Assembly (NCBI RefSeq): GCF_964355755.1
Contig: NC_092674.1
Location: forward strand, 22,780,001-22,844,000
Source of the DNA: Antedon mediterranea
Taxonomy: Eukaryota; Echinodermata; Crinoidea; Comatulida; Antedonidae
Reading direction: 5' to 3'
Length of the DNA: 64,000 bases
How positions within the stretch are numbered: position 1 is the stretch's first letter; the number at the start of each line of letters is the position of its first letter. A model generated the notes under the pieces. It was not told the origin of the DNA. It was given only the letters and a program-made list of their open reading frames with translations, and searched no databases. The position numbers and the translations under genes were made by a program. This document shows, piece after piece, positions 14,475 through 47,007 of the stretch.

Positions 14475-17400
14475 CTAAATGAAAGAAAAAATGATTAGTA
14501 TCTACTTCTGTTAAATCAGGATACTGATATCCAGGGGCTGTTGTACTTTCTGCTTACTAGATGATATCTTTACTAGTATCATTTCATGATAGTCTTAAAC
14601 TCTGTCATTTAGGTAAGCCTAGTTACCAAGTTGTATTAAAGTTAGTATACATATTTAATGAAAGTATGTTTAAATGTAGTTAGAGAATTTTTATTTTAAA
14701 ATAGGTCTATACTGGATTTCTGATTTCAATACAGAAGTTTGTTCTCAACTCACTAAATGCAGTGTTTATTGAAGAAGGTGATTCTGCCATATTAGCATCA
14801 GTGGCTGGCATTACATGTAGGCCATCATAAGGATTCGTAGTACTAAGTGCTGCTACTGCCCCAAGGGCGTCGCCTGCATACGTGTATTTAAACATACTAC
14901 CTGAATTTTCCCGCGTATACAAGAAGTTTCCAATAACCATTAAATAATAAGATCCTAGATAGGAAAGCGTTGGCACAATTTGTTGTTTGTTACTCCCATC
15001 AGAATTGACTGACCACACTTCGGTGTTTGTTACATCCGTCCAGAATATAACTTGACCTACAAAGTAGAAATTAAACAGAGTAGGCCTAGGAATAATTTTT
15101 TGTTTAATTGTTTCTCTATCACCACCACCCAATGACCTCCTAAAGAGATGAAAACGTATAATTAGGCTTTTCAACAGTAGGACGATATGTATTATAGCCC
15201 TACTAATTTCAGTATCTCCTCACCAAGTCACATGAAATAATTAAAACAAAGCCACGGCTAAAATTAAAACCGATGTAACCAGCTATACTAATCTTACTAA
15301 CCCGACCAACATTCAATAAAAACAAATGTGGTGTATGTCGCTTTCTATAGCATAGAAACAATTTCAACTACGAAAGTTGGGCCCAAAAATGTTTACAAAA
15401 TATATGTTTAGCAATAATTGTTGTTAAATTAAGCTCCGTTTAAAAGATTACAAATCAGTATTCGAACTTTAAAGTCTATATTGTTGTGTTTTTGTTTGTT
15501 TATATGTTTTTTGGCAATAAAGAATACGATAAGAAATTGAACTTGTTATGAGAAGTGTAGCCCTACCTGCATGGTCTACTGAGAGGCCATCACATATTCC
15601 ATTTACAACAACCGAAAAGGTATTCGGGTTGTCTCTATGAAATCTTTGTATTGAATCGTAATGTAGACAGTAATAAATGTATCTGAAAAGTCAACAAGTA
15701 TGGGTTCTGTAATTGGAAATTCTTGAAGTTATTTCGGTAGAAATTCTGTATTTTGCTTCAATAGTAGGCTATTAGACCGTGTTTCCACAGCCATAACAAA
15801 AATATCGGTTAATGATTTAACCAATCAAATATTTTTTTTAATATAGTGCGCATGATCAGTCATTGCCGAACTACCAAACTCTCAATGTTCTTCAAGTGAA
15901 AGGTTAAAAATTATCTCATTTATCCGATAATTATCTGATTTGAATTATTATAAGTTATTTTTATGGAAATTGGATACTTTATTGGATAATTATCTTATTT
16001 ATTACTATTTTTGGCTGCGGAAACACTGACTTAAAATAAAGACTACATTTGATTACTTTCAAATTAAAATCTTAAATAGACATAGTATGAAAAAAAGTTA
16101 TGTATGAATGCTTAATATATCAGCCGTACCCAGAACTTTCGTCAAAATCCATCGAAATGACAGATCCCGTCATAAATAGACCTTGGTTATTCATTCCATT
16201 AACGTCACAAATCGACATTTCGCTTAATGCATATGCAACGAAATAAACATTCTGACGTTCCACATCTAAACTCATAGAATATGCTCCTGAAATAGTCAAA
16301 TGATGTTTTAAAGCGATATTTAGATATACTCGACGGTCAAATACGTCCAATAACCATCAGCTCTTTATCAATCATTTAAAGTTACCAGGAACCTAAAACT
16401 ACAATTACCATTCTTTTCTCTGGATTGTAAGAATTGTTTAAAGGCCGGGTGGCAGTTAATAATCAATTGGACAATTTGAGTTAATACTTACCCATATTTA
16501 TAACAACTTCATAGTTTGTACCATCTAATGCTATTTTCATGATTTTTACAGGATCCGCCCAATAAACCATTTCATTAACAGGATTGTACGCCATTGCATA
16601 TGAATTGCATACATAAGGAATGTCGGTAAAGACGAGGGATTGGCTTTGAATATCATCAGATTCCGTGTATGTGTAAGATATTTTACGATTTCCTAGGCTG
16701 GAAGTCAGAATCATGTAACCTACAAATACATTGAGGAAAATGGTTAACCACGATGATGTCAATAAAATTGGCCATTTCTCGTTATGTTTGAATTTTTCAA
16801 AAGTATGTTAAAAGCGGATTAAACCATGAGGATATAATTTAAATTTTAAAGATTAAAACATGAGAAATGAAGATTAATTAAATCAGAAGTTAGGCCTATT
16901 TTGTAGTTTTAATAAAGTTAATCACTTCCATAGAAAAAATCCTCTCAAAAATAATGTTTATAAAATCACATAATAAATTGTTAAATTAAATTAAAAATCC
17001 ATTTTTTGCTTTAAAATAGAGTTTTTTCATGTAAATAAATATTTTTTTAGATCCAATTTTTGGTCAAAGTGAATAAATGCGGGCGTAAAATATATACGTT
17101 AGTTTAAAACTAACCTTCAGGTGGATTTGATTGACATGCTTGATTAGTTGTAGCTGTATCTGCTTTAGAAAATAAAAATAATATTATTTTTATTTTTCAC
17201 ATTTGGCCAATGATTGCTAACAGTAAATTAGTCACCGTCTTATCAGATAGATGGTAATCCCCCCGATTCAGGGGATATTTTGTGGACCAATTCACCGGGA
17301 TAATACCTACTCGTCTCGATTATGAACACAGGCAAACTGTTTATACTGGACGTAAGGTTTATAGTCCTTATCCGAGAAGACTTGCTTCACCATCAAAACT

Positions 17401-20400: not shown

Positions 20401-23400
20401 CGCAACGCAACGTAACGCAGCGACGAATCGACGCAAAGTGCTATATATACGTCCTTGCGTTGCTTAAGGAAACAATTGTGCACTTTGGAAGAAAGCATGA
20501 AACTTTCCATAATAATCCTCTGATATGTGCCCTAGATATAAAATTGGCTGAAATTGTATATTTTGACGGCCAATTAAGATGGCGAAAACAAGGAGGTCTT
20601 ATTTTGGGGTCTATTTTTTGTGCGATAATTTGGTATTATAGAGTGGAAATGTCATGCTTCTTCAAGTGCACGAATCGTCTCTAAAGTCAACCTTAGTCAT
20701 TCTACTACAGTATGTGTTTTAGGCACATTTCAAGAATATTTTGTTAGATCAAAGTACTTAGAAATTGTAACTTTTTCCATAATAGTTTTAATGTTCTGAA
20801 TATACCAAACCAATCAAATCAAGCGACAGCTGTTATTTTATTTGTTGTTAATGACTAGTTTCTTGATGCTTTGTTGCAATTGTGTAATTGTAATAATATA
20901 GTTATTATATTTTGTTACTGTGAACGTACCAGTATATAATACGTGTAGCCCATCAGACGGATGAGTTGTGCTTAGTGTTGCTACTGCTCCAAGCGCGTCG
21001 CCTGCATACGTGTATTTAAACATACTACCTGAATTCTCCCGCGTATACAAGAAGTTTCCAACAACCATTAAATAAAATGATCCCAGATAAAAAAACGTTG
21101 GCACAATTTTTTGTTTGTTGCTTCCATCAGAATTTACTGACCATACTTCTGTGTTTGTTACGTCCGTCCAAAATATCATTTGACCTGAAATGACAAAAGC
21201 AGTGAGCACTCAGGCAACATTATCTTCTTCATTAGGCTTCACTAACAAAATGCAAACAAAGTTTGGAACAACAATTTGATCAAGTTTCCTCAATTGCAAA
21301 CTGTGAATTTGCTTTTTTTTCCAAAACTAAAGTTTACTAGTGTAGACTAGCTTTAACATCTTGCCACTGTTATTGCTCAAAATGTTGTATATTGTGTTTT
21401 TATATATATTTTTATCATTGCTTAAAATTATTGATGTTGGTTTTTAAAGAATAAGTATTAATGAAAACAACTTATAAACATTCATTATTTGTATATTACA
21501 AAAAAACACCAAAGTAGGCATACTACCTGTAGGGTCCACAGATAGACCATCGCAAATTCCGGTCACAACGACAAATGAAGTAGTCGGGCTGTCACGATGA
21601 AATCTTTTGATTGATTGGTAACGAAGGCAAAAGTAGATATACCTAAAATAAAATTACTTAATCAACATAATGTACGGTAATTGAAACTGTTACGCTAAAA
21701 ATAACTACGCGTAAACAATCTTTAACACCATTTCCATTTATCCAAACGTTGTGCTTACCCAGAACTGTCGTCAAAATCCATGGAAATAACTGATCCTGTT
21801 GTAAACAAACTCTGTACATTTTGTCCAGTGACATCACATGTTCTCATTTCACTGAATGCATATGCCACGAAATAAAGATTCTGGCGTTCCACGTCTAATG
21901 TCATCGAATACGCCCCTAAAATAAAGATGATGATTTTTTTTTTTCATTTTATTCAATTTTGTAAATGTATAAAGAATTCTGGATATTGGCATTAAAAAAT
22001 AATTATTTACCTGGAAAAATTGTAATTTAAAGCAAAACTTCTTTGTCAGGCAAGGGTGTTTATTTTGTCTTTTTATAAGTGAAATCATTATTAAAAATGC
22101 AAAAGGGCCTTTCATAGTTTTTTTTGGGCGCTAATACTGTACATCTTTTTAAGTCTTCGACCCAAAGTAAACTTTTCTTAACAAATTATGAGTGTACCAT
22201 GTATTCGTTGTAGGTCTAATTATTTACCTTATGACTAACTTACCTGTGGCAATAACAACTTCATAGTTTGTACCATCTAATGCCATTTTCATGATGTTTA
22301 CGGGATCTGCCCAATAAACCATTTCATCAACAGGATTGTACGCCATTGCATATGAACTGCATACATAGGGAATGTCGGTAAAGACAAGGGATTGGCTTTG
22401 AATATCATCAGATTCCGTGTATGTGTAAGATATTTTCCAATTTGCTAAGCTTGATGTCAAAATCATATAGCCTACATGAGAGAAATAAAATAGTTTTTAT
22501 GAATACAATTTATAACAAATTTAATTAACACTGATATCAAAATGTGTAAACTCTCTCAAGATATAAATCGTTTCTCACCGTGTCCTGTAGTGGATAGTGG
22601 CGTTGTTTGTTGAACATTAAAATTACTGGCTGTTGAGACAAAAATGATATGTGTATTGTTTGCATGGCGAGTTAACACGAATAAAGTAAGTATAGGTTTT
22701 CGGTACAACATGTGTTTCCAAAAGGAAACAAAGTATGGTTGAAAATGTTTTGAGGTTTCGGTTTTCGTGTTTTGTCGTCTGGAGAAAATGTTTCTTCTTC
22801 TAGAAGACGATTGTAAGCATAACATATTTTATTTCTCTTTGGAAATATAGTGTACTGCAGACATAACTTTACTAGGAAATATAGTAGTTTAAGTGCATAT
22901 AATATGTATAGACATGTAAACATTTTATGATTGTAATGATCATATACTTTGGTTGACTTTATTTTAGTACGTTCTATATTTTTCTCTTTACTTTCCATAT
23001 ATGCTATGGGACGCTATGTATCAGTCATAATTCATAATTGTTCAGAAGTATAATACATTCTTTATGTATTTCTAGTAACTTACCGGTTTGCTGTGACTGT
23101 GACAATGTTGTGGGCATGGCCGCTACAGTTGTTGAACTGAGTTGCTGAGTTGATGATCCTATTAAATCAGATGATTTTCAGAGATTTTTTAATTATTTGG
23201 ACAGTTCATGTATTTTATTTTGTGATATTAAAAGTATTTTAAAATATTTGGTAGCGTAGTTTTGAGAGTAGTATGTTGTCTGTGTGTTAAGTCTCGTCTA
23301 AACCTGCAAACCTTTGTTTGCAATTTCCTAGTTTTTCACTGTTTGGAAAGGGTTTTTGCTTACTGGATTCTTTCCATCTGAGAACCATATGCTTACTGCA

Positions 23401-26400
23401 TGATGATCCTCGAATGAACCTTCAACAAACAGGAAGATTTGCTAGTGTAGACATGGCTTTACCACACAATTGAACTGTTGAATTACTAAGTGGAAAAAGT
23501 GTTACGTTTACGCGAGTTGTTTTAGAGACGCATTAGCGTTCTCAAAGCATAATCACTTAAATAATTAAAATCATTTTTTAAGTATTTTGGCTGGAAATGG
23601 TTTCATCGTAAATGTGACCACAATGTGTTAATGGCTCTTTGTACATAATTATATCATCATCATCATCAGTCGGCTGCGGAGCAGGCGACTACAAGCTTTC
23701 TCCAGCCACAACGGTCCTTGGCTAACTCTGACAGCTTATCAGTTGTAATCATGCCTCCTTCATTCCCTAAAAGCTGTTGGATGTATCTCAGAAAGTTGGT
23801 TCTCTGCCTTCCTCGTTTTCTTTTCCCATGTTGAGGAACATACAGAGCGTACTCTTTGCATGGTTCGTCATCAGGCATTCAGACATAATTATATAATGGG
23901 CTGTAGGATGGTGTTTCAATGTACATCGTTTTGGCAGAATTAAAAATAACTTAAATAAGAATCATCACGATTTCGACACATTCACAATTCCCATTTAAGT
24001 TCCAATGATAAGCCTACTTACCCATATTTACCACGTGTAACCCGTCATAAGGGTGCGTTGTGACTAGTGCTGCTACTGCCCCAAGCGCGTCGCCTGCATA
24101 TGTGTATTTAAACACACTGCCTGAATTTTCTCGCGTATACAAAAAGTTTCCAACAACCATCAAATAATATGATCCCAGATAGGAAAACGTTGGCACAATC
24201 TTTTGTTTGTTACTTCCGTCGCTATTTGCGGACCACACTTCTGTGTTTGTTACATCCGTCCAAAATATCATTTGTCCTGTGGAAATTAATTTCTATTAAT
24301 TAACTATTATTATTTAAATTTCTTTGGAGTTATAATGATTTTTTAGATCCACAATTTTCGAACATTGTCCTGTAATTGAGGAAGACAACATTTTAGAAAA
24401 ACACTCGATTTGATTTAACTATTGGCCAATGCTTTGACAATATCATTTAATTGTATCAAGCATGTATGTAAGCGAAAAAACAGGGCCGTGAAATCAGAGC
24501 TTCGGATGTTTTTGTCCACAAGAGTATAGCTGTACATAATAGGGCTTTCCACCATATCTGGCCTTGGAGGCGCCACTGTTATGGACATCAGCCCTCATTA
24601 TCCCCAATTATGGACAAATGAATTCCCTATTACAAATTCTGTACCTGTCGGGTCCACGGAAAGGCCATCGCAAACTCCAGTCACAACGACAGACGAAGTA
24701 GTCGGACTGTCTCGATGAAATCGTTGGATTGAATAATAATGAAGGCAAAAGTAAATGTATCTGTAAATAGATAGAAAATGCAAAAAAAAATAGTATATTC
24801 TAATTATACTGTAGTTCATGTTGCCTCCTCTTCTCCCGATAAATTCGAAAAGATAAATATGAAAGAAAAAACCATATTTTACACTATTAGCTTCACAATT
24901 AATATTCAAACTCCAGTCTTCTGTTATCTTGTTTTTCTGTTATTTTTAGTCGTTAGCTATCAACACAAAGGTCTAAGTTGCCGATGATATCTCCTAATAT
25001 TAATGGAAAATATGTCTAAAATAATTATAAATACTAACGAAGACTTCTCTGTCACTTCTCTTCAGAGGGAAACATTATGATACTTAACCGCTATTACATA
25101 CGTATAAGCTTTCAACACATAATCATATGTATGGTATTGTATACAAAACTCTACTTTGCAGCATCTACAAACATATTAGTATTTATTCTCATTTTTACTG
25201 TTGCAATATCATCTATTAAACCTAATTTTGATCCGATTCTTAATATGCTGCGTGATCCTCAATTACAATTGTTGGTTTTACCTCCTTATACAATTTACTG
25301 TGTTTGCGACCATTTTATAGTCATTTAAGATGCTGATCGGTCTTCAGTCGTAAGTAGTTCGGGTTTTCCACATTTTTTTTTTATATAAAAGAGATATAAT
25401 AGCTCACATTTGTCATAAGCAATGTTCAAAGCGTCAACTGTCATATCCTTTAAACTATCCCAAAACTGAGAATAAAATACTTCGGGGGAAAACTATAAGA
25501 TCTTGAGGACTTATTCACGGCCATACACCAATTTTCATTAATTTAATGTAAGCAGTCCTTGATCGCAGTTGTAGTTTTCATTTAAACGATCGATATATTT
25601 ATCAATATAGAAATCTCTATTTCAATAAATTGGTTTTGATCAACTTATAAATCTTGTTTATATTTTGTAATATATAGAAGTTTTAAATCCGGAACACTTA
25701 TCCTTCAATTAATCTATAATTAAACTTTAATTATTTGTCAATGTTTTTATTACGAATGCAACAACTTTTCATATCAACGACAAAATAATCAATAAAACAT
25801 GAATATAACAATAATGATATTTTTTTAATTAGCATACATATTATTTTATACCGTAATATTTGTGTTAACTTACCCAGAACTTTCGTCAAAATCCATGGAA
25901 ATAACTGACCCCGTTGTAAACAAACTCTGGACATTTTGTCCAGTGACGTCACAGGTTCTCATTTCACTAAATGCATATGCAACGAAATAAAGATTCTGAC
26001 GTTCCACGTCTAATGTCAACGAGTATGCGCCTAAGAAAAAATGTGCTTTCGAATCAAAGAGGAATACTTGATATTGTCTGTTTATAGAAATTCACAGTCA
26101 ACAGTACGAACTACAATCCGTTTAAGACAGTTAAGCTTGGTTCTCACAGCGACGCAACGTAACGCACCACTTCCAATCATTGTGTTCCAATCATTGTGTT
26201 CCAATCAGACGATGTTTGCAGCACTATTGCGTCGTCGATTCCCGCTTGTGATTACGCAATACAGAACTTTGCGTCGATACGTCGCTGTGTTGCGTTCTAG
26301 TGAGAACCACGCTTTATTCATTTTAAGTTTGTGGTTTGTAGAACTGCCCCAAATTTCTACTTTATTGACAATGTCGTCTATATATCGCTACCCTTATTTT

Positions 26401-29400
26401 TCACCGGTTTGTGTTTCAGTATGTCTGAACAGCACCTAAAAGTTTTACTGTTTATTTTACGTCATTGGTTTAGTTCTTTCTGTTGGAATCCTATTACTCA
26501 CCTTCAGAATTCAGAGTTATCATGTTTAAATTCATGTAAACAACATTTACAGTTTGTACTAAGAAGATAGTGAGGATTTAGTTTCACGTTTGTGCTATTG
26601 CTGCAATGTTTTATTTTATGTATTCTGTGGCAATACAATAATAAGTTATATGTATACCTTATGCGGTGATATTGAACAAAATCCAGGCCCCGCAGAGGAA
26701 AACAAGGACAGGGCTAGTGATAACACAAACACAAGTAACAACAGTAATAATCCAACATTTTATTACCAAAATATAAGAAGTCTTAAAAACAAGATGGACA
26801 CATATCATTCTGAACTGAATGTGCACCTCATTAATAATACGTTCGACTTTGTTGCATTTACCGAGACTTGGCTAAATTCAACGGTTCTTGACTCCGAACT
26901 TTACTGTGATGGTTTTACAATTCATAGAAGGGACAGGAACGATGGCAGAAGAGGTGGTGGTGTTCTTTTCCTAGCTTCTAATCAGTATAAGTCTCGACGT
27001 CTGGAGCACCTTGAGAAACCAAATATTGAAATCCTCTGGGTTGAAATTAAGCTAAGCAAGACAAAACGAGTGCTGGTTGCTATTATTTACAGGCCACCCA
27101 ACAGCGGAAGAGATGTCATGTTGCAACTAGCGCAATCAGTTGAAGATGCATCAGCCATGTATTCAAGGCATCATATTGTTCTTATTGGAGATCTGAATCT
27201 TTCTGAAATCACGTGGACCAATGATGGATCTAGAACTGCACCTGCTAACTCATTGGGTGAACTTTTTATTGACTGTTTTATTAATGGACATAATTTGTTT
27301 CAGTGCAATGTCAATCCAACGTGCAATAATAATGTTTTAGATTTAATTTTGTGTAATAATTCAATTGATTTAATCTCGGATATTTCTGCTGGTCAGAATA
27401 TTTTTGAATCTGATCATTCTTCAATTTCATTTATTCTTAAAATCTCAATTCAAAAACACTTTTCTAGGGATTCAAGACAACTATATTGTTTCAAGGCTGT
27501 AAATAATGATGATCTTTTAAATGCTTTTAATGTTATACCTTTTGATTTAATCCATATGTGCAATGATATTAACAATAGTGTTTCTCTTTTTTATGATTTA
27601 GTTGATGCTGCTCTCCGTGATCTTGTGCCTATTGTTAGACCTAAAAGAAAAATGCCGCCATGGTTTGATAATAAAGTTAGAGTCGCTCTTAAAAACAAAG
27701 AGAAATGTTTTGGTATCTCTAAACGACTTAATACACATGAATCAAAACATGCTTTTTCAGTTGCCAGAAAAGAATTTAAAGTCCTTATGAAACTTAAATA
27801 TAAAAGTTATATGCAATCACTTTCTGGGAATCTTAAGGCAAATCCCAAACGTTTCTGGTCGTGGATAAAGACCAAAACTAAATCGTCTTCTTATCCGTCG
27901 GTTATGTCGCATGGGCACAAGGTCGCGGAGACAACAAATGATAAGGCTGCTTTATTTAACAGTTATTTTCATTCAGTTTTTAGATCTGGACCTTCTGTGA
28001 CTGATGAACACCAACGTCTGCCTGAGGCTTCTGTCGGCATTCTCAATGCTCCAATTATTCAATCTGAAATTGTTAACTCGTTACTGTCATCCATTCAGAC
28101 TCATAAGGCATCTGGATGTGATAATCTCAGTAACCATGTTCTTAAAGTTTGTTCTCGTCCTCTTTCTATTCCTATTTCTTTCCTCTTTAATAAATCTCTT
28201 CAAACCGGTAAATTTCCTTCTGTTTGGAAACGTTCCAATATTGTTCCTATTCATAAGGGGGGACCAAGAAATTGATTTCTAACTATAGACCTATCTCTCT
28301 GTTGCCTACCATTTCTAAATTGTTTGAAAAAATTGTTTTTAACCATATCTCGACTCATGTTTCTCCTGCCATTGCTTCCTGTCAGCATGGCTTTGTAGCT
28401 GGTAGGTCATGTGAAACAAACCTTGCCACCCTGTTGACCACAGTTTACGAAGCCATTGATGACAGGAAGCAATGTGATATTATTTACACAGACTTTTCTA
28501 AGGCGTTTGATCTTGTTCCTCATAATTTACTCTTATTTAAATTACAACGTTTTGGTTTTCATTATGATTTTATCTCCTGGTTTCGTAGTTATCTTAATGG
28601 TAGGTTCCAGAGAGTGGTCATTGAGGGTATATCCTCTGAATGGCTTCCTATTCATTCCGGTGTCCCTCAGGGATCGATTCTTGGTCCTCTCCTTTTCAAT
28701 CTTTTTGTCAATGATATCCCAAAACTCTTCACCCACTCCAGATGTCTTATGTTTGCTGATGATGTTAAACTATACAAAATTATTGGTAGTGTTGAGGATG
28801 CCGACAGGCTTCAGGTGGACTTGGACAAGCTATGTTCTTGGGCAGCTTTATGGGGTATGTCCCTCAATCCAGTAAAGTGCAATATTTTAACTATTACTTT
28901 GAAAAAGAACATTTTATTTTATAATTATTTAATTAATGACAATCCCATTAATAGGGTGCAATCGCAAAAAGATCTTGGTGTTTTTATTGATAGTTCCCTT
29001 TGTTTTTCTTTTCATATGGATTATCTTGTTGGCAAGTGCAATAGACTGCTTGGGCTGATGTGGCGTAATTGTAAACATTTTGACAGGCAAACCAAAATCC
29101 ACCTTTATTATTCAATTATCCATCTCATTCTCAACTTCAGTTCTGTTATTTTTAATTCTATTTCGAAAACTCAGTCTACGCGCATTCAGCGTCTGCATAA
29201 CCGTTTTTTACGCTACATCAGCCACAACCAGAATCCTGACTTTCATTTCCATGTCCGATCTCCTGAGTCTCGTAGAACCTTTTTTGATCTTGTTTTTTGT
29301 ATAAATGTATTAATTCTTTATTTGACTGTAATTTAGTTAGTAATTTTTATCTTAGAGTCCCTAGTCGTCGTCTTAGAAGAAATACTACTTTTCATATTCC

Positions 29401-32400
29401 TTTTAGTAGAGTAAATGTTTTAAAAAATGGTTTTATTAGTAGATTAAGTCAAACTTATAATTCTTTTACTTTAAGAAACCCTGAGTTAGATATCTTTAGT
29501 AATAATTTCCGTAAGTTTCGTAACATTGTTAGTAGTTTAGTTTAATGTTTGTTATTGTATATGTTCGTGTTTGTCTGTGTTCCCTCCTGTAAGTGGTGAA
29601 CCATGAGCTCACTGTTGGTTGGAAAATGAATAAATAAATATTCTTGAATAAAGCTAGATTATGTTTTAAATATTCTACAAAACAACTTTAAAACAAGTTC
29701 AATCTTTTGACACATTGCGTTTCAATAAATGAAGATCACTTTACTAACCTGTGGCAATAACAACTTGGTAGTTTGTACCATCTAATGCCATTTTCATAAT
29801 GTTTACGGGATCTGCCCAATAAACCATTTCATCAACAGGATTGTACGCCATTGCATATGAACTGCATACATAAGGAATATCGGTAAAGACGAGGGATTGG
29901 CTTTGAATATCATCAGATTCCGTGTATGTGTAAGATATTTTCCAATTTGCTAAGCTTGATGTTAGAATCATGTATTCTGTAAAAGGTGTATAATGCTAGA
30001 TGTACATAAAGAAATATTAGAATTGTTGTATTGCATTGTGTCATTTTGATAATGACAATTTCTTTATTAGAATTTATACGCTAAAAAAATACAAATAAAA
30101 TATATCAAATTAAATTAAATACAGACCACCCTTTGGAACGACAATAACATTATTTTTCGAATGGTACCTAGCTTTTTAATGCTATGACTGTAACAGATGT
30201 ATGGAAGAGAACAACTTCAGATGTTTCCCAATTTCTGAAATATAGCTTTCTGTATGATATATAAAGTTGTATTATATTTTGTCTTGCACTATCTAAATTA
30301 ATATATGCTGCAAATATCACTGATGTTCCAAAATATGTATATACACAAGTTACAAATCTAATATATAATTTTATTTGGAACAATAAAAGGGAAAAGATAA
30401 AAAGAAAAACTCTAATTGGTGATGTTGAGATGGGAGGCATTAAAATGCCTGATTTTACTCTTCATGTTAACGCACTCATGTGTGGCTGGTTAAAAAGAAT
30501 TATGAATGATGATGGTGCTAAATGGAAAAATATTCCAATGTATTATATTAAAAAAATATGTGATGTTAATGTTTTACTTAATATGTCATGTTATAACATT
30601 ATTGATGTTAATTCTGATAAAATTCCACTGTTTTACAAAAATATGATAAAAGCCTACATAAATTATAACAGAATCTCTAAAAAAAAACCTGAAACTTATA
30701 ACGATATAATGAATGAGCAACTGTGGGGAAACCACTACGTTAAACTAAAAAAAAAACGCTTTTCTACAAGCATTGGATTGACAGTGGCATTATCAGTATT
30801 AAAGACATTGTTAATAAGAACACTTTTTTAACATCGAACGAAATACTGGTGAAACTACAATGTAAAACAAACTGGTTAAATGAGTATTTGTGCATTATTA
30901 AGGCAATACCAATTCAATGGAAACGTATTATTAAGGAGGTAGATATTTTCAATTGTGATGATAATGATGACGTAGTTGGGACTAAGTATGAGATTAATAC
31001 TACCAAACTAATATACTCATGGTTTGTGAAAGAATATTTCATTATTCCAATGTCACAACTAAAATGGGAAGAGTACTTCAATGATAACAACATTGATTGG
31101 AAAACTTCTTGGTTACGGAAAGTATGTAAAATGAAAGATAAGAAACTAGCACAATTCAATTATAAGATGTTACATAGAATACTGCCTACCAACAAACGGC
31201 TGTATCAGTGGAAAGTTAAGGAAACACAAACGTGTGACAAATGTGGAGAAATTGAAAATGAAAATCATTTGTTTTTTAGTTGTAGATTTATTCAGAAATA
31301 TTGGAGGAAAATGCTTAGTATCTTTGTAAGTTTAAATCACAATAATATATCATTTAAACAATTAATACTAGGAACGGGAGATAAGCTAATAGATTATATT
31401 TACACTTTTGCAGCATTTACTATTTATAGAATAAAAATGTTATCTGCACTAAATAAGCCAGTGGGTAAATCTTTATGGAATTCATTTAAAAGCAATATGT
31501 TATATAACATTGAATGTGAAACATATAACAATAAAGAAACAAGTATAGAAAAATGGGTAGCTTTAAGAAATAAGATTATGATAATATAAATTCTAACTTG
31601 ATACGATTAACCGAAAAGGAATTACAGTGATACGGGTTACTGGTGGTACTGAGCTATTATTGTTTTTTTTTATCATGTATATAAATATATTGTATAATCC
31701 GGGTTGTAAAATGAAAACAAACAAATGAAAATGTGTGAACTATTTTAAAACGGGATAGATGATAATGATGATCCTGTCAAGTGTATAACAAAATATAAGA
31801 AAATTAATGAAAAAAGGAGTAATACAGAATTCATATATGTAAAAATGTTACTTATGAACTGTAACGACATTTACAAGTTAAATAATACGATTTTATGTAA
31901 TATGAGATAATATGAATGTGAATAAAAGTGGTGTTTGCGCCACAAAAGAGAAAAAAAAAAAGTTGTATTATATTTAGTTGTTGGTTTTAAGACCTTGGGT
32001 AAGATAAGCAAATCTAACGCAGTTAGTCTGAACGTATAGATGGAACTGAACATTTTCCAATATTTTCTTTGACCTTCTCTTTTTTAATACCGTAAATCTA
32101 CATTCAAACTCGATATCGGTGCCGTTTTGTTAGATAATAGAAAATCTTATAAAGAATATAGCATAATTCTGGAAATATTTCTTCATTAACCATTCCTAAA
32201 TTGTTGTAATACTTATAATAGTACTATACTACTTTTTAAAATCAAAAGCAAACCAATTTTTTAATAAAATACGAATAAGCTAAATGTAATTACTACAATA
32301 TGTGTGCAACTAAACAGTGTAACTTGATGTTAATCGTACAATATTGAAAGCAAAATGTAATAACTTTATAAATAAACATCACTTACGTGAGTTGCTGCTC

Positions 32401-35400
32401 TTTATCAGCAGCATGATTGTAATAAATTACCATTCCCTAACATATAGAGTAACATAGTATTTACATGAACATTCTAGAATAAGATGTTTTGATTTAATAA
32501 ACCATGTATAATTAATAAGAACAATCAAGAACATTCCAGAAGTGCTATTAATAGAAACTGTAATCATGTAATAATGAGAAGTATAAAGAATGATCTAGAA
32601 GGATAGGAGCATCTTGTATATAAAGGGTTGTAAACTATTGTAAGGTTGTTGGATCAGAGGTTGGATTAGAGGTTGGATATTATATTGTAAAGTTATTGTG
32701 AAACTGTTGTTTAAAGTGCTTACTGGATTGTTGAAAGTTGAAGTTGATTGAAAATAAAGCTTTGTTTTTGAGTTATTTTACAACTTTGTGGATTTTGTGT
32801 GTATACTTTTATGTCACAAGGGAGTTCCTAAAGTATTTTCAACCGCTCGGAAACATACGTGAGAGGAGTTCGTGACATAATTTGGTGGCAGCGGTGTTCA
32901 GCCTAATTTGGTGGCAGCGGTTATTTCGATCTACTGTTCGACTTAACTGTGTATTTATCTACAGTACTGTTGTGATATTTTGTGGTAGCAGTTTGATCTA
33001 CTGTATTTTGCCATAGATTGGTGGCTGTTTAGGATCAACTGTACTTTTATTGATATTTTGAGGAAGTGGTACTTACGATACTGAGATATTTTACGGAAGC
33101 CGTGGTGCTACGTTTTGTTTAATCGTAAGTACACAAACATTGTTTTAAGAACAGTACATTATTTATTTGGAACAGTAGACTTGTGAACGTCTCGGTAACT
33201 ACGATTAACTAGTAACAAGACCCTCATCCAGATTTAAAAAATGGCTGATAAACAATCAACAACAAGATCCGGTAGAGAATACAGCGGCGGCGATGAAACT
33301 GATTCGGATGTAGAATCAGTTCAATCAATTCAACCTGAACAACAGGCAGAAGAGTCTGGACCAACCAGTGGACATAACCCTACAGGGGCTGACTCATTTT
33401 CAAAAGACTTTTTGTTGTTGATGCAGCAGCAAATGCAACAGCAGAATATTATGATGCAGCAGATGATGAAACAACAAGAACGTTCACGTCAAGAAGATAA
33501 TGAAAGACGTCGGGAAGATATAGAGAAACAAGAACGTTTACGCAAGGAAGATATAGAGAAACAAGAACGTTTACGCAAAGAAGATATGGAAAGACAAGAA
33601 CGTTTACGTAGGGAAGATATGGAGAAACAGCAAGCATTAGTAATGGCGTTAATGGACAAGCAAAAGGACAGTGAGGAGAAACGATTAAAAGACATAATGA
33701 GATTGAAGGAAGTTCAGATTGCAAAGCTTTCTGATAGTGATGATATTGAAAATTATCTCACTACGTTTGAACGTATTGCTAACACCTATGAGTGGCGAAA
33801 AGAACACTGGGTAGTAAAACTAATACCTCATTTGACAGGCAAAGCAAGAGCAGCCTATGCATCACTACCAGTGACAGAAAGTAACCAGTACGACATAGTG
33901 AAGAAAGCAATATTACAAAGGTATGACATAACTGAAGAGACATATAGGCAAAGGTTTAGGTCAATTAAAAAGAAAAGTGAAGAAAGTTATAGAGAAATGT
34001 ATGTTAGGTTAAAAGATTTATTTACTAAGTGGGCTAGGCCTGCTGATAAAAGCAAAGATGATTTAGCTGAAATTGTTATTTTAGAGCAATTGATAGATAT
34101 TATGCCCACAGGGGTACAAATTTGGGTTAAAGAACATAAACCAGATTCGGGATTAAATGCTGCGGAATTAGCAGATAATTATTTTCAAGCTAGAAAAGGT
34201 ATCGATTTTGAGAAAAAGTTTCAAAATAGAAAACACGAAAATAGAAACAACCAGGAGAAAACAGTGAAAGGCACTCCTGAAGTTGACAGTAAGGGTAATA
34301 ATAATCCCCCTGATAACTTTCATAAATCACAATCTGACGCTAGACAACCTCTCGTTTGTAGACGGTGCAAAAAAGTAGGCCACATAGAACGATTTTGTCG
34401 AAGTAAGGATGGCTTTTTGTCGACAAAGACAGATACTGTTTCAAAACCATGTACACCTTACATTTGTAGAGGCCTAGTTGAAGGATGTGATTGTGAAATT
34501 TTGATAGACTCTGGATGTGATATGACACTTGTTCATTCTGATTTAGTAGCGGCTAAGAAAATTAATCGCGCGGAGCAAGCTAAAATTACATGCAGGTGCG
34601 TCCATGACCATGTCCAAGCCTATCCTACTGCATTCGTCAATATTAAGATTAATAACGAAGACCATAATTTGTTGGTTGGCGTTTGCAGCGATTTACCAAG
34701 AGATGTAATTCTTGGTAGGGACTTTCCTAAATTTGGAGACTTATTAGGGAAGAGGGATAAGAATCATGATAGGCATAGTTTTGTTGCCACTAGAGATCAT
34801 GCTAGAAAAGAAAAACTAAGAGAGGAAAACGAATTAAAGTCGGAAAAAGCTTCTGGGGTTATTTCACATCAGTTAGATGATGTGGTTAATTTTCAAGAAG
34901 AATTTGGACATTTAGATGGCCAACTACTCAGTAACAACCCTCCCAAGGAAAAAGTTCATAAAACCAGAAGTGAGAAACGAAAAGTTAGGAAAGAGTTTGC
35001 AAAAACAAAGGAAGCTCAATCTAGCCAAGATAGTGAATTAGACATTTTAGATATTGGCAGAGATAAAATTAAGGATTATCAGGTTAAGGATAGAACTTTA
35101 ATTTCACTTCGAGAACAGATGTTAGTACAGAAGGATGATGACACTATAAAGATAGTCTGTAAGGATGGAATTTTATTTAGGCAGGTTTTCACTAAACACC
35201 AGACAGAACCAATAGAGCAATTAGTAGTTCCATACCCTTGCCGTAATAGTGTATTGAAAGTCTCACATGATATTCCTTTGGCAGGTCATTTAGGTAGGAA
35301 AAAGACATTAGATAGGATAAAGCAAAGATTCTTTTGGCCTGGTATTAGAAAGGATGTGACTGAATATTGCAAGATTTGTCAGAAAACTTCAAAGTATAGA

Positions 35401-36112
35401 ACTAAATTTAAGGACTTTATGATTCCTATGTCAGTAATTAGTGAACCATTCGGACAAATTTACATGAATGTTGTTTGTTCATTATTAGTAATTATTAATA
35501 ATTATGTTCCATGTTATTATGGCGTATTTAAGTTTTATAGACTAGGAGTGGGTTAAATTTTGCCACGTCCGTGTATACTAGCCCCTCAAAACTCCAAGAA
35601 AGAGTTTTGAGCTCAGAAAGAGGGGGGAGTGTAATAAATTACCATTCCCTAACATATAGAGTAACATAGTATTTACATGAACATTCTAGAATAAGATGTT
35701 TTGATTTAATAAACCATGTATAATTAATAAGAACAATCAAGAACATTCCAGAAGTGCTATTAATAGAAACTGTAATCATGTAATAATGAGAAGTATAAAG
35801 AATGATCTAGAAGGATAGGAGCATCTTGTATATAAAGGGTTGTAAACTATTGTAAGGTTGTTGGATCAGAGGTTGGATTAGAGGTTGGATATTATATTGT
35901 AAAGTTATTGTGAAACTGTTGTTTAAAGTGCTTACTGGATTGTTGAAAGTTGAAGTTGATTGAAAATAAAGCTTTGTTTTTGAGTTATTTTACAACTTTG
36001 TGGATTTTGTGTGTATACTTTTATGTCACAAGGGAGTTCCTAAAGTATTTTCAACCGCTCGGAAACATACGTGAGAGGAGTTCGTGACAATGATAAACAA
36101 ATATTGAAACAT
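14242..36112 (-). CDS. Gene III: secreted triple YWTD-propeller protein with mini-exon linkers and PAN-like C-terminus
   Basis: Model of about 23 exons, read right to left. Order: exon 1 signal peptide (36112-36090 joined to 32412-32387, split by an LTR element); propeller A (29976-29749, 26030-25874, 24760-24645, 24276-24022); linkers (23158-23084, 22629-22579); propeller B (22471-22244, 21915-21759, 21642-21527, 21184-20930); mini-exon linker array (20168-17115); propeller C (16719-16492, 16286-16130, 15682-15567, 15056-14754); PAN-like last exon (14474-14242). Without the insertion the coding sum is 3195 nt, about 1064 aa. Every junction has GT/AG and matching phase. Each propeller shows YWAD, YFVA, YIYFC or YIYYC, FWTD and FLYTR strands, as in LDL-receptor-type propellers; no EGF or LDL-A domains were seen. 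It should be secreted. Function is unknown, but the fold suggests ligand binding. Whether A, B and C belong to one transcript is inferred from the absence of other start or end exons between them. Confidence 0.72.
14754..15056 (-). CDS. Gene III propeller C, exon 4 of 4
   Basis: Acceptor TTTGTAG and donor GTGAGT give a 303-nt phase-1 exon. It encodes the blades QVIFWTDVTNTEVW and GNFLYTREN, then a Ser/Asn-rich tail. The frame runs 16 codons past the donor before a stop. The donor was chosen because it keeps phase with the PAN exon and resembles the gene I exon 5 end. Confidence 0.8.
15567..15682 (-). CDS. Gene III propeller C, exon 3 of 4
   Basis: A 116-nt exon with acceptor TTTTCAG and donor GTAGGG. 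It encodes GYIYYCLHYDSIQRFHRD and ICDGLSVD. The length and the phase 2-to-1 structure match the equivalent exon in all five propellers. Confidence 0.85.
16130..16286 (-). CDS. Gene III propeller C, exon 2 of 4
   Basis: A 157-nt exon, acceptor TTTCAG, donor GTACGG. It encodes GAYSMSLDVERQNVYFVAY and a blade ending MDFDESSG. The donor is at phase 2 as in every paralogue. Confidence 0.85.
16492..16719 (-). CDS. Gene III propeller C, exon 1 of 4
   Basis: A 228-nt phase-1 exon, acceptor TTTGTAG, donor GTAAGT. It encodes YMILTSSLGNRKISYTYTES and the blade MVYWADP. It is the most diverged of the three gene III copies but still very close to A and B. Confidence 0.85.
17115..20168 (-). CDS. Gene III mini-exon array: Ser/Thr/Gln-rich linker
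   Basis: Eleven candidate phase-1/phase-1 exons: 20168-20124 (45 nt), 19925-19902 (24, weakest), 19575-19531 (45), 19318-19274 (45), 19062-19018 (45), 18806-18762 (45), 18550-18512 (39), 18329-18285 (45), 18011-17964 (48), 17571-17530 (42), 17162-17115 (48). Each has an AG acceptor and mostly a GTGAGT donor. A typical peptide is ATTSDQTTQQSSSQQ. All lengths are multiples of 3, so exons can be skipped or duplicated without a frameshift. Units 19575 to 18550 are spaced 256-257 bp with very similar introns, showing recent tandem duplication of exon plus intron. The peptide resembles an O-glycosylated flexible stalk; that role is inferred. Confidence 0.7.
17221..17465. other. Less AT-rich island inside a linker intron
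   Basis: Between the mini-exons at 17530 and 17162 lies about 240 bp of clearly different composition. It includes CCCCCCGATTCAGGGG, a 60-codon plus-strand frame and the palindromic word GTCAGTCTAGAACTGAC. It looks inserted. I recognise neither a protein nor an RNA. Confidence 0.35.
20329..20464. mobile_element. Nested or broken palindromic MITE
   Basis: Two left ends of the AAAGCGTGGTTCCCACTAG family occur in tandem (20329 and 20379), followed by CGACGCAAAG and GTCCTTGCGTTGC. The right end is incomplete. It lies in the intron between propeller B and the linker array. Confidence 0.6.
20930..21184 (-). CDS. Gene III propeller B, exon 4 of 4
   Basis: A 255-nt phase-1 exon with donor GTACGT, encoding GQMIFWTDVTNTEVWSVNSD and GNFLYTREN. 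It has the same length as the equivalent exon in propeller A. Confidence 0.85.
21230..21356. mobile_element. Probable MITE of the GTCTACACTA family
   Basis: The right end AGTTTACTAGTGTAGACTAG followed by CTTTAA matches the ends of elements at 23287-23461 and 44073-44197. The left end is poorly preserved. Confidence 0.35.
21527..21642 (-). CDS. Gene III propeller B, exon 3 of 4
   Basis: A 116-nt exon with donor GTAGTA, encoding GYIYFCLRYQSIKRFHRD and ICDGLSVDPT. Phase 2 in, phase 1 out. Confidence 0.85.
21759..21915 (-). CDS. Gene III propeller B, exon 2 of 4
   Basis: A 157-nt exon with donor GTAAGC, encoding GAYSMTLDVERQNLYFVAY and ending MDFDDSSG. It is nearly identical to the copies in propeller A and gene I. 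Confidence 0.85.
22244..22471 (-). CDS. Gene III propeller B, exon 1 of 4
   Basis: A 228-nt phase-1 exon with acceptor CATGTAG and donor GTAAGT, encoding YMILTSSLANWKISYTYTES and MVYWADP. Confidence 0.88.
22579..22629 (-). CDS. Gene III A-B linker mini-exon 2
   Basis: Acceptor CTCAACAG and donor GTGAGA bound 51 nt in phase 1/1. The peptide ASNFNVQQTTPLSTTGH is Thr/Gln-rich like the B-C linker units. It sits directly before the first exon of propeller B. Confidence 0.65.
23084..23158 (-). CDS. Gene III A-B linker mini-exon 1
   Basis: Acceptor TTAATAG and donor GTAAGT bound 75 nt in phase 1/1. It encodes GSSTQQLSSTTVAAMPTTLS and a further Ser/Gln-rich stretch. This composition and symmetry match the B-C linker array. 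Confidence 0.68.
23287..23461. mobile_element. MITE of the GTCTACACTA family
   Basis: The left end TTAAGTCTCGTCTAAACCTG and right end TTGCTAGTGTAGACATGGCT are imperfect inverted copies, 175 bp overall. It lies in the intron between linker exon 1 and propeller A. Confidence 0.5.
23646..23890 (-). mobile_element. 5'-truncated RTE-like LINE, C-terminal fragment
   Basis: A 70-residue frame (23878-23666) with GKRKRGRQRTNFLRY and ELAKDRCGWRKLVVACSAAD resembles the extreme C-terminus of RTE-like LINE proteins. It is followed on the minus strand by a TGATGATGATGAT tail, the usual kind of 3' end for such elements. The rest of the element is absent. Confidence 0.65.
24022..24276 (-). CDS. Gene III propeller A, exon 4 of 4
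   Basis: A 255-nt phase-1 exon, acceptor TTCCACAG, donor GTAAGT, encoding GQMIFWTDVTNTEVWSANSD and GNFLYTREN. Confidence 0.85.
24645..24760 (-). CDS. Gene III propeller A, exon 3 of 4
   Basis: A 116-nt exon, acceptor TTTACAG, donor GTACAG, encoding GYIYFCLHYYSIQRFHRD and VCDGLSVDPT. Confidence 0.85.
25874..26030 (-). CDS. Gene III propeller A, exon 2 of 4
   Basis: A 157-nt exon with acceptor TTCTTAG and donor GTAAGT, encoding AYSLTLDVERQNLYFVAY and ending MDFDESSG. The following intron holds a MITE and the CR1 LINE. Confidence 0.85.
26131..26316. mobile_element. Palindromic MITE (AAAGCGTGGTTCTCACTAG family)
   Basis: Starts TTAAGCTTGGTTCTCACAG and ends CTAGTGAGAACCACGCTTTA. The interior contains a short duplicated word, TGTTCCAATCAT. 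It lies in the gene III intron between propeller A exons 1 and 2. Confidence 0.75.
26650..29545 (+). pseudogene. LINE endonuclease/reverse transcriptase with two frame breaks
   Basis: The first frame (open from 26590, first ATG 26650, stop at 28275) has a 2A motif and then an AP-endonuclease domain with QNIRSL, FTETWL, IGDLN and SDHSS. The second (28272-29336) has RT motifs NYRPISLL, GVPQGSILGPLLF and the FADD catalytic box at 28752-28763. A third (to 29545) holds the C-terminus. The breaks coincide with a run of six G (28257-28262) and a run of six T (29293-29298); each behaves as one missing base. No other stop was seen. The copy is therefore young, or the breaks are base-calling errors. 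Confidence 0.8.
26665..26691 (+). other. 2A-like ribosome-skipping motif GDIEQNPGP
   Basis: GDIEQNPGP fits the D(V/I)ExNPGP consensus that makes ribosomes skip the last Gly-Pro bond. It lies at the very N-terminus of the LINE protein, before the endonuclease. 2A motifs in APE-type LINEs of sea urchin and other invertebrates are established; activity here is inferred. Confidence 0.8.
29749..29976 (-). CDS. Gene III propeller A, exon 1 of 4
   Basis: A 228-nt phase-1 exon with acceptor TTTTACAG and donor GTTAGT, encoding YMILTSSLANWKISYTYTES and MVYWADP. It would splice to the signal-peptide exon that is now split by the LTR element. Confidence 0.87.
30270..31740 (+). mobile_element. 5'-truncated L1/Tx1-like LINE, C-terminal half
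   Basis: An open region from about 30290 reads LSKLIYAANITDVPKY and FIWNNKR, then MGGIKMPDF, all typical of the post-RT part of L1-group ORF2. It continues to a CX2CX7HX4C zinc knuckle (CDKCGEIENENHLFFSC) and ends at 31589. The frame breaks once, in a run of ten A at 30747-30756, again as one missing base. It sits in gene III intron 1, antisense to the gene. Confidence 0.8.
32387..32412 (-). pseudogene. Gene III exon 1, 3' half (signal peptide)
   Basis: This fragment ends with AACTCAC followed by donor GTAAGT, matching the AACTCAA/GTGAGT ends of the signal-peptide exons of genes I and II. It is cut off from its start by the LTR element inserted at 32418. Both halves share the duplicated target ATGAT. 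Confidence 0.75.
32418..32877 (+). repeat. 5' LTR (460 bp)
   Basis: Begins TGTAATAAATTACC and ends GTTCGTGACA. It contains TATATAAA at 32617-32624 and a poly(A) signal AATAAA at 32753-32758. Confidence 0.92.
32883..32896 (+). promoter_or_regulatory. Primer-binding site, complementary to tRNA-Leu
   Basis: TGGTGGCAGCGGTG begins 5 nt after the 5' LTR and is complementary to the 3' end of animal tRNA-Leu(UAG), ...CACCGCTGCCA plus CCA. A second copy, TGGTGGCAGCGGT, follows at 32909-32921 within a 26-bp direct duplication, and a decayed third version lies near 32981. Confidence 0.75.
33241..35556 (+). CDS. Gag-protease-integrase zinc finger polyprotein of LTR element (771 aa)
   Basis: Starts at ATG 33241 with no internal stop. 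Residues 55-150 form a Gln/Glu/Arg-rich coiled-coil-like stretch with four to five 11-residue repeats of the ERLRKEDIEKQ type. Residues about 165-320 are SCAN-like Gag (YRQRFR, WVKEHKPDSG). C373, C376, H381 and C386 form a CCHC knuckle. D423-S-G is the aspartic protease site, with ILGRDF near 490. H676, H683, C710 and C713 form the integrase zinc finger. The frame then ends just into the integrase core, where the usual first catalytic Asp is Asn (MNVV). RT, RNase H and the rest of integrase are missing. It is the longest intact ORF in the window. Confidence 0.9.
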   Translation: MADKQSTTRSGREYSGGDETDSDVESVQSIQPEQQAEESGPTSGHNPTGADSFSKDFLLLMQQQMQQQNIMMQQMMKQQERSRQEDNERRREDIEKQERLRKEDIEKQERLRKEDMERQERLRREDMEKQQALVMALMDKQKDSEEKRLKDIMRLKEVQIAKLSDSDDIENYLTTFERIANTYEWRKEHWVVKLIPHLTGKARAAYASLPVTESNQYDIVKKAILQRYDITEETYRQRFRSIKKKSEESYREMYVRLKDLFTKWARPADKSKDDLAEIVILEQLIDIMPTGVQIWVKEHKPDSGLNAAELADNYFQARKGIDFEKKFQNRKHENRNNQEKTVKGTPEVDSKGNNNPPDNFHKSQSDARQPLVCRRCKKVGHIERFCRSKDGFLSTKTDTVSKPCTPYICRGLVEGCDCEILIDSGCDMTLVHSDLVAAKKINRAEQAKITCRCVHDHVQAYPTAFVNIKINNEDHNLLVGVCSDLPRDVILGRDFPKFGDLLGKRDKNHDRHSFVATRDHARKEKLREENELKSEKASGVISHQLDDVVNFQEEFGHLDGQLLSNNPPKEKVHKTRSEKRKVRKEFAKTKEAQSSQDSELDILDIGRDKIKDYQVKDRTLISLREQMLVQKDDDTIKIVCKDGILFRQVFTKHQTEPIEQLVVPYPCRNSVLKVSHDIPLAGHLGRKKTLDRIKQRFFWPGIRKDVTEYCKICQKTSKYRTKFKDFMIPMSVISEPFGQIYMNVVCSLLVIINNYVPCYYGVFKFYRLGVG
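35585..35611 (+). other. Perfect hairpin upstream of the polypurine tract
   Basis: CTCAAAACTC and GAGTTTTGAG form a 10-bp perfect stem with a 7-nt loop, 18 nt before the 3' LTR. Its role is unknown; it could be an RNA signal in the 3' untranslated part. Confidence 0.7.
35616..35629 (+). promoter_or_regulatory. Polypurine tract
   Basis: An unbroken purine run, GAAAGAGGGGGGAG, directly abuts the 3' LTR, as expected for the plus-strand primer of an LTR retrotransposon. Confidence 0.85.
35630..36089 (+). repeat. 3' LTR (460 bp)
   Basis: Same length and, read base by base, the same sequence as the 5' LTR, implying a very recent insertion. Confidence 0.92.
36090..36112 (-). pseudogene. Gene III exon 1, 5' half with start codon
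   Basis: ATG at 36112-36110 opens MFQYLFI, the start of a hydrophobic signal peptide, then the frame meets the 3' LTR. Ignoring the insertion, the exon is 49 nt and ends in phase 1 like the first exons of genes I and II. Confidence 0.7.
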
Positions 36113-44900: not shown

Positions 44901-47007
44901 ATTATATTTTTTAATATTAGTACTTTAAATGATATGCCTATGCTATTTAAAAAATATACTGTACAAATATGCCGAAAAGTTCTGTGCAGTCGTGCCTTGA
45001 ATGTTTTGATATTGAACACTGTGTAATGGATGTTCATCTTGAAAAATACCCGCACACAATAATACGCGGATACTTCGCATTTACATATATCCTTCTACGA
45101 TAATTGTTTTAATAGCTGAAAACCGATTTAACAGCTCGAGTTCAGCATCATAATGTTGAAAACAGGCCGATTTTCCTTAAAAAATATTATTTTGATAGAT
45201 TTAATATACGTTTATACAAATGTATTGATTTTCGATTAATGGAACATTCCAATCTCCCAGTTTCCCAAGGCAATCTAACATGTTGAGTGCAACAAATTGG
45301 AAACAGATGTTTTTGTTTTTTAAATGGTCAGATGTGATAAGAGATCAAAATTTGATCATAATACTTTTGTCACTCATCCCGATGATATGCAAATTAGCCT
45401 AAATATGCAAATTAGGGTGAAATTACAATAATTATCAAAATATCTTTAAAACTCCTAGACAGAGAGAGTTGATTATTTCACCAATTTATTCAGAATGTAT
45501 ATATTTATATTTGCTCTAATGAAACATTTTACGAAAAAAATGATAAATGGAACAATCCAATCTCTCATCTCTCAAGTATTTAGTTACTGAGAGGATAAAA
45601 GAATATATTTAAAAATTGTTCCTCTTTTCACCCATCCTCTTCCCCATCCTTCACAAAACACAAGTTGGGTTTGACTCATTTTGGAAGTAATTCCCGGGTG
45701 CTAATTTTAGTTGACTACATACGAATCACCGTGTATATTTACTTTTTAATGTAAACATGTATTTTATTGTCTTGTGGTACGTACATTTGAAATTGCTTTT
45801 TTTTTTTCGCTGAATTTACTATGTGTATTCGAGAACCATCTCTGGGCACGATCTAGATGGTACGCGAGCGTAGTCAATGAAATATAATAATATAATAAAC
45901 CTAAATGTATTTATTTATTTTTACATCAAATGTGTACAACGTGTACAATCAATACGTCGAGAGGATTATTGATTATCAAAAATGTGTATCTCAGGATATC
46001 ACGTAATTCGTCACGAACATTTCACATTAAATTAAGTAAACATGAGTTTAAATTCAATTAATTTATTTATAACTTTAATAAATATTTGTTTACATGTTAA
46101 TCATGAATTTTGTTATAATAACATGAGTTGATGGTACAATACACAATAACGTTTAGAAAGTTCTCCTTACTATCTCTAGCAAAATGATTATTTCTAGAAA
46201 TTGAAAAGAGTAAATGGGTTCCTGCGAGTAGATCTTATAACATAACGTATAGTTTTGATGACGCAAGGCCCTCTTAAAAGACTATTATTTTTAGACCCAC
46301 CTGCTAGTGTTAAAAGATAAGACAGTCTTAAAGTAACAAGTAAACAGAAATTGCATTTTCTCGAGAACTATTTGTCCCAAATACTTCATTTATCTACAAG
46401 AAGCAAGAGTTATTGGGCTATTCTTCGAAAAGATGTTATCTCAATTTTCGGTCGTAGGCCTTCGGTCGTCAAAAGCACCCTACTACCAAACTGTTGTTAC
46501 TTGTTTTAATTTACCCAAATTATTTTTTAATATTAGTACTTTAAATGATATGCCTATGCTATTTTTAAAATATACCGAAAAATTTTATGCAGTCGTGCCT
46601 TGGATATTTTGATATTTGACCCACAACCGTCCAATCAAATGACAGGAATTTATTTAGGTGTTTCATAATATTGTATATTATTTAAATATCGTGTATTTGT
46701 ACATTTGTTTACGAACTGACGTACTGTGGGTCTTTTTCAAAATGGCTGAACAGGATAGACTAATACCCTTACCAAGCTTGCATTTTATTATATTGGAAAA
46801 TCCTCACCCGTTCGTAGGTCATGCATCAGTTTTGAGAGCGTTTTCGGGGTTTTAATTCATTGGCAAATTCAAACCCCTTTTTAAAAATCGATTTTCTAGC
46901 CCATAGAATATAAGAAAAATTTAAAAATAGTGGAAAATATACTCACTTGAGTTTGCGGTTCTGCAAAATAAAACCAGATAATACACAAACATTCTGAAAT
47001 AACTCAT
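38678..47007 (-). CDS. Gene II: secreted YWTD-propeller/PAN-like protein
   Basis: Six exons: 47007-46947 (signal peptide), 43977-43741, 43183-43027, 41141-41026, 40399-40148 and 38901-38678. They sum to 1047 nt, 348 aa plus stop. Introns follow the same phase pattern as gene I (1,1,2,1,1). Blade strands are MIYWAD, KIYYGD, YVVYC, KIYWVV and HIYVRD. The propeller is very diverged from genes I and III, although exon lengths 157 and 116 nt are unchanged. The PAN-like domain is about 93 percent identical in DNA to that of gene I. Introns 1 and 3 carry Helitron DNA, and another Helitron begins 86 bp upstream of the ATG. Secreted; function unknown. Confidence 0.8.
39172..39337. repeat. 166-bp near-perfect hairpin element
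   Basis: Arms of 76 bp (39172-39247 and 39262-39337) start ATAAGGTTTATCGCAAATAG and are inverted, with a 14-bp loop and only about ten mismatches. The centre is CpG-rich (GACGCGTACGTAC). It lies in gene II intron 5. It looks like a fold-back MITE; a transcript would form a long RNA hairpin. Confidence 0.8.
40148..40399 (-). CDS. Gene II exon 5
   Basis: A 252-nt phase-1 exon, acceptor CTATATAG, donor GTACGT. It encodes LKIYWVVLVDQQIRSIRYDG and HIYVRDFDYGISKYDVNG, the last propeller blades. Confidence 0.85.
41026..41141 (-). CDS. Gene II exon 4
   Basis: A 116-nt exon, acceptor TCTCTAG, donor GTAATA. It encodes GYVVYCEYKRNIKYI and CDSLTID, which align with GYIYFC and CDGLSVD of the paralogues. 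The exact 116-nt length and phase 2-to-1 pattern support it despite low similarity. Confidence 0.78.
41520..42989 (+). mobile_element. Complete non-autonomous Helitron (1470 bp)
   Basis: The 5' end is TCTATATATAAATTTACG with host A before it. The 3' end is a perfect 13-bp stem (42953-42965 and 42977-42989, CTAGATGGTACGC) finishing in CTAG with host T at 42990. 5'-TC, a 3' hairpin, CTRR and insertion between A and T are Helitron hallmarks. No Rep/helicase frame. It lies in gene II intron 3, ending 37 bp from exon 3. Confidence 0.82.
43027..43183 (-). CDS. Gene II exon 3
   Basis: A 157-nt exon, acceptor TTTTTAG, donor GTAATG, encoding IRGIDISPHERKIYYGDAF and ending VQVDYNNG. Its donor lies 37 bp from the Helitron end. 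Confidence 0.83.
43741..43977 (-). CDS. Gene II exon 2
   Basis: A 237-nt phase-1 exon, acceptor ACTGACAG, donor GTAAGT, encoding SISYTYTDMDGD and MIYWADNSALKRVSL. Confidence 0.85.
44073..44197. mobile_element. MITE of the GTCTACACTA family
   Basis: TTAAGCTCTGTCTACACTAC and GTAGTGTAGACAAGGCATTA are inverted ends of a 125-bp element in gene II intron 1. Confidence 0.65.
44795..45015. repeat. Direct repeat flanking the intron-1 Helitron block, copy 1
   Basis: TATTGGGCTATTCT through CAGTCGTGCCTTG recurs at about 46412-46615 with moderate divergence. The two copies bracket the Helitron-derived block between them. Confidence 0.7.
45020..45868 (+). mobile_element. 5'-truncated Helitron with broken 3' hairpin
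   Basis: Begins within the Helitron at AATGGATGTTCATCTTG and runs to CTAGATGGTACGCGAGCG. The right half of the terminal hairpin is absent, replaced by TAGTCAATGAAATATA, which also follows the copy at 52062-52576. It includes a segment with two ATGCAAAT octamers (45387, 45405) that the complete copy lacks. Confidence 0.65.
45869..46295 (+). repeat. Sequence shared downstream of two Helitron ends, copy 1
   Basis: About 420 bp starting TAGTCAATGAAATATA and ending near GACGCAAGGCCCTC is shared with 52577-52976. In both places it directly follows a Helitron end lacking its right hairpin arm. Confidence 0.7.
46412..46615. repeat. Direct repeat flanking the intron-1 Helitron block, copy 2
   Basis: Second copy of the roughly 200-bp segment at 44795-45015. 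Confidence 0.7.
46947..47007 (-). CDS. Gene II exon 1: signal peptide
   Basis: ATG at 47007 opens MSYFRMFVYYLVLFCRTANS, a hydrophobic secretion signal, ending AACTCAA before donor GTGAGT. The sequence and the upstream region match gene I exon 1. Confidence 0.8.

Follow-up and report, generated by a model that had tools for sequence, protein, structure and literature searches.

A young Gmr1-like element in the first coding exon of a propeller gene of Antedon mediterranea: a candidate natural knock-out

In a 64,000-nucleotide stretch of the crinoid Antedon mediterranea (contig NC_092674.1, positions 22,780,001 to 22,844,000), here called the window and numbered from its first letter, an LTR element lies at the start of a minus-strand gene, gene III. 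This raises the question of whether the element has cut through the only start exon of the gene and, if so, what this means for its product. The account favoured here, at a probability of about 0.8, is that of a recent insertion of a non-autonomous Gmr1-like element into exon 1 of gene III, likely amounting to a null or strong loss-of-function allele.

The split first exon and its paralogues

The following features make up the insertion site:

36095..36112, minus strand: gene III exon 1, 5' part (ATGTTTCAATATTTGTTT)
36090..36094: target-site duplication ATGAT, right copy
35630..36089, plus strand: 3' LTR, 460 bp, TG...CA, identical to the 5' LTR
32418..32877, plus strand: 5' LTR, 460 bp, TG...CA, identical to the 3' LTR
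32413..32417: target-site duplication ATGAT, left copy
32387..32417, minus strand: gene III exon 1, 3' part, with an inner in-frame ATG, followed by the donor GTAAGT

The element (32418-36089, plus strand) has terminal direct repeats of the TG...CA type and a short target-site duplication, the 5-bp ATGAT on both sides, as is characteristic of an LTR-retrotransposon insertion. When the flanks are rejoined with one ATGAT, they form a 49-nt minus-strand exon (36112-36095 plus 32417-32387) that runs from ATG to AACTCAC/GTAAGT (slashes mark splice sites), reads MFQYLFIMLLIKSSNS plus 1 nt, ends in a phase-1 donor that fits the acceptor phase of exon 2. The predicted product of this exon is a putative signal peptide, with a hydropathy of 2.98 over 8 residues and a tail shared with the paralogous genes. 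Two of these lie in the window:

60220..60289, minus strand: exon 1 of the paralogous one-propeller gene I
46947..47007, minus strand: exon 1 of the paralogous gene II

Their first exons encode MKMIYLSVFVYYYLILFCKLANS/S in gene I and MSYFRMFVYYLVLFCRTANS/S in gene II, and that of a fourth paralogue, just outside the window, encodes MYCYLILLCNLANS/S. All four first exons, including that of gene III, carry the tail [KRN]x[A/S]NS and a phase-1 donor after AACTCA (AACTCA+GT). Because a DNA comparison of the exon-1 flanks among the paralogues gave no similarity except one dispersed repeat, the test of homology was confined to the exon itself. This repeat is 70-80 bp long, with copies of 85-96% identity upstream of gene III (36699-36777), upstream of gene I (61134-61201) and around 11.7 kb (11708-11780).

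Gene III could instead have another functional first exon, or a transcript start driven by the LTR, which would make the insertion intronic or 5'-flanking and neutral. LTRs can carry promoters, and the exon-1 homology is a short stretch in four sequences. A scan for signal exons on the 60.3-kb minus strand of the reconstructed empty site, however, returned four donors with candidates, of which three had the shared tail; the stretch from gene II to exon 2 of gene III holds no candidate other than the split exon. Shuffles of this last stretch gave a mean of 0.098 candidates, none with the shared tail. Such a candidate was likewise absent from 100 dinucleotide shuffles of the whole empty-site strand, a control that is not fully independent, the tail pattern having been broadened so that the gene III peptide would fit. 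For that reason the AACTCA core, shared by the other three genes, provides the more independent test. The minus strand of the window has three occurrences of AACTCA-N-GTRA, each in a first exon (60226, 46953 and 32393), and the plus strand none; from base composition, 0.2 would be expected per strand and 0.016 in the 5 kb that lie upstream of exon 2 of gene III. Phase and position of the split exon also agree with the other genes, and a start exon elsewhere is improbable.

The earlier note had proposed the main points of this reconstruction. The LTR pair and its ATGAT copies lie where it placed them, and removal of the element with one ATGAT reproduces its 49-nt exon exactly, with the ATG, AACTCAC and GTAAGT; the donor is of phase 1. 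Its reading of a split exon holds, the rejoined exon being in phase with exon 2 and opening an 803-aa frame without a stop. The claim that this exon shares its phase with exon 1 of genes I and II is confirmed by phase-1 donors throughout, and the claim that it is the only start exon agrees with the scan.

The propeller gene

With exon 1 rejoined, gene III comprises 13 exons from 36112 to 14707, encoding 803 aa with no internal stop. The twelve exons downstream of exon 1 are:

29749..29976, minus strand: exon 2, propeller 1 exon A, phase-1 acceptor
25874..26030, minus strand: propeller 1 exon B
24645..24760, minus strand: propeller 1 exon C
24022..24276, minus strand: propeller 1 exon D
22244..22471, minus strand: propeller 2 exon A
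21759..21915, minus strand: propeller 2 exon B
21527..21642, minus strand: propeller 2 exon C
20930..21184, minus strand: propeller 2 exon D
16492..16719, minus strand: propeller 3 exon A
16130..16286, minus strand: propeller 3 exon B
15567..15682, minus strand: propeller 3 exon C
14707..15056, minus strand: propeller 3 exon D, including the stop codon

All twelve have retained their open frames and splice sites. The A-B-C-D series is repeated three times (30.0-24.0, 22.5-20.9 and 16.7-14.7 kb) with phase-1 junctions and a single terminal stop. Separate genes for the three blocks were considered and rejected: each of the first two blocks closes with an exon D whose phase-1 donor joins in frame to the next exon A. 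The signal-exon scan found no start exon between the blocks.

Searched against PDB, a module of gene III matches LRP-type YWTD propellers (best 6.2e-29, LRP4); the Pfam class-B repeat PF00058 stays below its cut-off alongside these strong sequence matches. The product is thus predicted to be a secreted protein with three tandem LRP-like YWTD-type propellers. Between the propeller modules, dN/dS is about 0.1 (0.08-0.18) at a dS of 0.39-0.71, the mark of strong past purifying selection. Because these values accompany such a dS, the coding sequence was constrained over a period much longer than the age of the insertion.

No close copy of gene III was found in the assembly apart from gene I, which is therefore the sole obvious backup. 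Genes II and I end in cysteine-rich exons, PAN/apple-like by eye (38681-39061 and 54521-54814), which are 89% identical, whereas the propeller exons A of the same two genes are only about 33% identical; this contrast is read as exon shuffling or conversion.

The locus also contains other repeats. In propeller 1 of gene III, the intron that separates exon A from exon B harbours a LINE (26563-29336, plus strand) with endonuclease-like and RT-like frames, one frame carrying a 2A-like motif, GDIEQNPGP, near its start. LINE-like frames were seen by eye in gene III intron 1 (30265-31589) and between exons C and D of gene I (56656-57180). A minisatellite-like stretch at 3600-6300 has long open frames of repeated HHHHTQCHQV-type peptides and is probably non-coding.

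The element and its family

Between its LTRs, the element contains:

33238..35556, plus strand: single ORF with Gag including SCAN, CCHC zinc knuckle, aspartic protease and integrase H2C2 zinc finger
35460..35551, plus strand: tail of about 90 nt at the deletion junction, private to the short lineage and missing from the long relative examined
35552..35629, plus strand: pre-LTR stretch with the polypurine run GAGGGGGGAG, common to the long copy examined

Domain matches of the ORF are SCAN (PF02023, 4.9e-24), Integrase_H2C2 (2.8e-17) and gag-asp protease (5.3e-6); the CCHC knuckle was read by eye. No integrase core, RT or RNase H was found in the ORF. Long copies with the same LTR exist in the genome and share its sequence up to about 35459; past the common part, one of them has an open frame of 796 aa with, in this order, integrase core, RT and RNase H. 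An initial idea, that RT had been lost between the protease and the integrase finger, was rejected, as the protease-H2C2 stretch of the long copies is equally uninterrupted and their RT lies further downstream.

Integrase placed before RT is the hallmark of Gmr1-like Gypsy elements (PMC3587641), and the SCAN domain derives from Gmr1-like Gag (PMC3424704, PMC3406341). Since the window copy has a SCAN-type Gag and its long relatives carry integrase upstream of RT, in the order protease, integrase, RT, it is classified by sequence as a Gmr1-like Ty3/Gypsy element, itself without RT.

The private tail occurs in at least 40 genomic places, and the whole 930-nt 3' part is matched by eleven copies, the window element included. 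The short form is therefore a multiplied lineage and not a one-off deletion. By these matches, the window copy is assigned to an internally deleted, non-autonomous short lineage, which has presumably multiplied in trans. Forms of about 1.85 kb with the same LTRs and private tail (G000:C9:5411130-5412986 and G000:C3:11178462-11180313) are still shorter deletion derivatives of it.

No difference was found between the two LTRs over 460 positions, which supports a very young insertion. If substitution rates of 10, 5 or 2 per billion years are assumed, the insertion is, at the 95% upper bound, no older than 0.33, 0.65 or 1.6 million years, respectively; LTR gene conversion would invalidate these bounds. 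All six LTR pairs checked in the family are identical as well, each with a clean 5-bp duplication; they are the best-scoring pairs and hence biased toward young copies. Because of these identical pairs and duplications, the family looks recently active. The earlier note had likewise taken identical LTRs as a sign of recent insertion. It had identified neither the family of the element, a non-autonomous Gmr1-like lineage, nor the product of gene III, three YWTD-type propellers.

Gene conversion between LTRs is known in general, and an old, fixed insertion with homogenised LTRs in a pseudogene would accord with it and with the lack of an empty allele in the assembly. This reading is very improbable in view of the twelve open downstream exons with their splice sites, the identity of the other LTR pairs, and the 930 nt of the element's 3' part that are identical to a copy 1.5 Mb away. 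The search for an empty allele, made with the joined flanks against the one haploid assembly at hand, found none, as expected from a haploid assembly and uninformative on polymorphism; the insertion may be polymorphic in the species.

Consequence for gene III and comparison with known systems

The proposed course of events is that an internally deleted Gmr1-like element, mobilised in trans by the long copies of its family, would have integrated recently and antisense to gene III, 18 nt inside its first coding exon. As the sequence stands, translation from the outer ATG covers 28 codons before a stop, giving MFQYLFIIVTNSSHVCFRAVENTLGTPL: the first seven signal-peptide residues are followed by LTR sequence. 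Starting at the inner in-frame ATG, the product begins MLLIKSSNSQ... and lacks a hydrophobic core, the stretch MLLIKSSNS being too short to serve as a signal peptide. The insertion thus very probably removes the putative signal peptide, would with it abolish secretion, and probably represents a null or strong loss-of-function allele in the sequenced individual. Early termination of the transcript is also possible, because the antisense element carries several AATAAA/ATTAAA words on the strand of the gene. The remaining exons would not have decayed owing to the recency of the event.

Gene III might be rescued by exonisation, the half-exon with the outer ATG and a piece of antisense LTR being spliced in frame as MFQYLFIIVTNSSH-HYTPFTEYMILTSS. 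The LTR has a cryptic phase-0 donor, CAC/GTATGT (GT at 36070), and provides a plausible signal-peptide tail; an acceptor, TCTAG/CAT at 29995, 19 nt upstream of the normal exon 2 acceptor, has an open in-frame extension, as read from the sequence. The cryptic donor, however, scores 1.4 against 4.0 for the normal donor on the same scale, the ordinary acceptor lies just downstream of the alternative one, and the agreement in frame has a 1-in-3 chance, all of which makes such splicing very unlikely. That the LTR end stands in for the lost half of the signal peptide in a chimeric working start exon, so that gene III has been rewired and not killed, is most unlikely.

Under the favoured account of a disrupted start exon, the locus is a clean and datable candidate for a natural knock-out in a gene whose propeller modules purifying selection had preserved. 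Its cause would be an apparently very recently active animal Gmr1-like family, whose short RT-less form itself multiplied. If the insertion is polymorphic, carriers and non-carriers would offer a direct test of the role of the three-propeller protein. Coding exons split by young retrotransposons are a well-known and common class of event. A literature search for comparable exon-splitting cases in invertebrates yielded nothing useful; the present case is an unusually clean and easily tested example of an ordinary type of event.

Among known systems, the YWTD beta-propellers of LRP4, LRP6 and LRP2 match the gene III propeller module across its sequence (E down to 6.2e-29). Unlike these proteins, gene III as modelled consists of a putative signal peptide and three propellers only, and no EGF, LDL-A or transmembrane parts were seen in it. 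The element resembles Gmr1-like Ty3/Gypsy elements (PMC3587641, PMC4131045) in its SCAN-bearing Gag and, in its long copies, in an integrase upstream of RT and RNase H, but the window copy has neither integrase core nor RT nor RNase H. With the plant TR-GAG non-autonomous LTR retrotransposons (PMC8704663) it has in common the LTRs, a single Gag-bearing ORF without RT or RNase H, a multicopy family of one common structure, and highly similar long relatives. The TR-GAG elements described in plants encode Gag alone, whereas the window element belongs to an animal Gypsy lineage and also encodes a protease and an integrase H2C2 zinc finger. Because it has retained more than Gag, it is not classed as a member of the TR-GAG group, although it would work alike.
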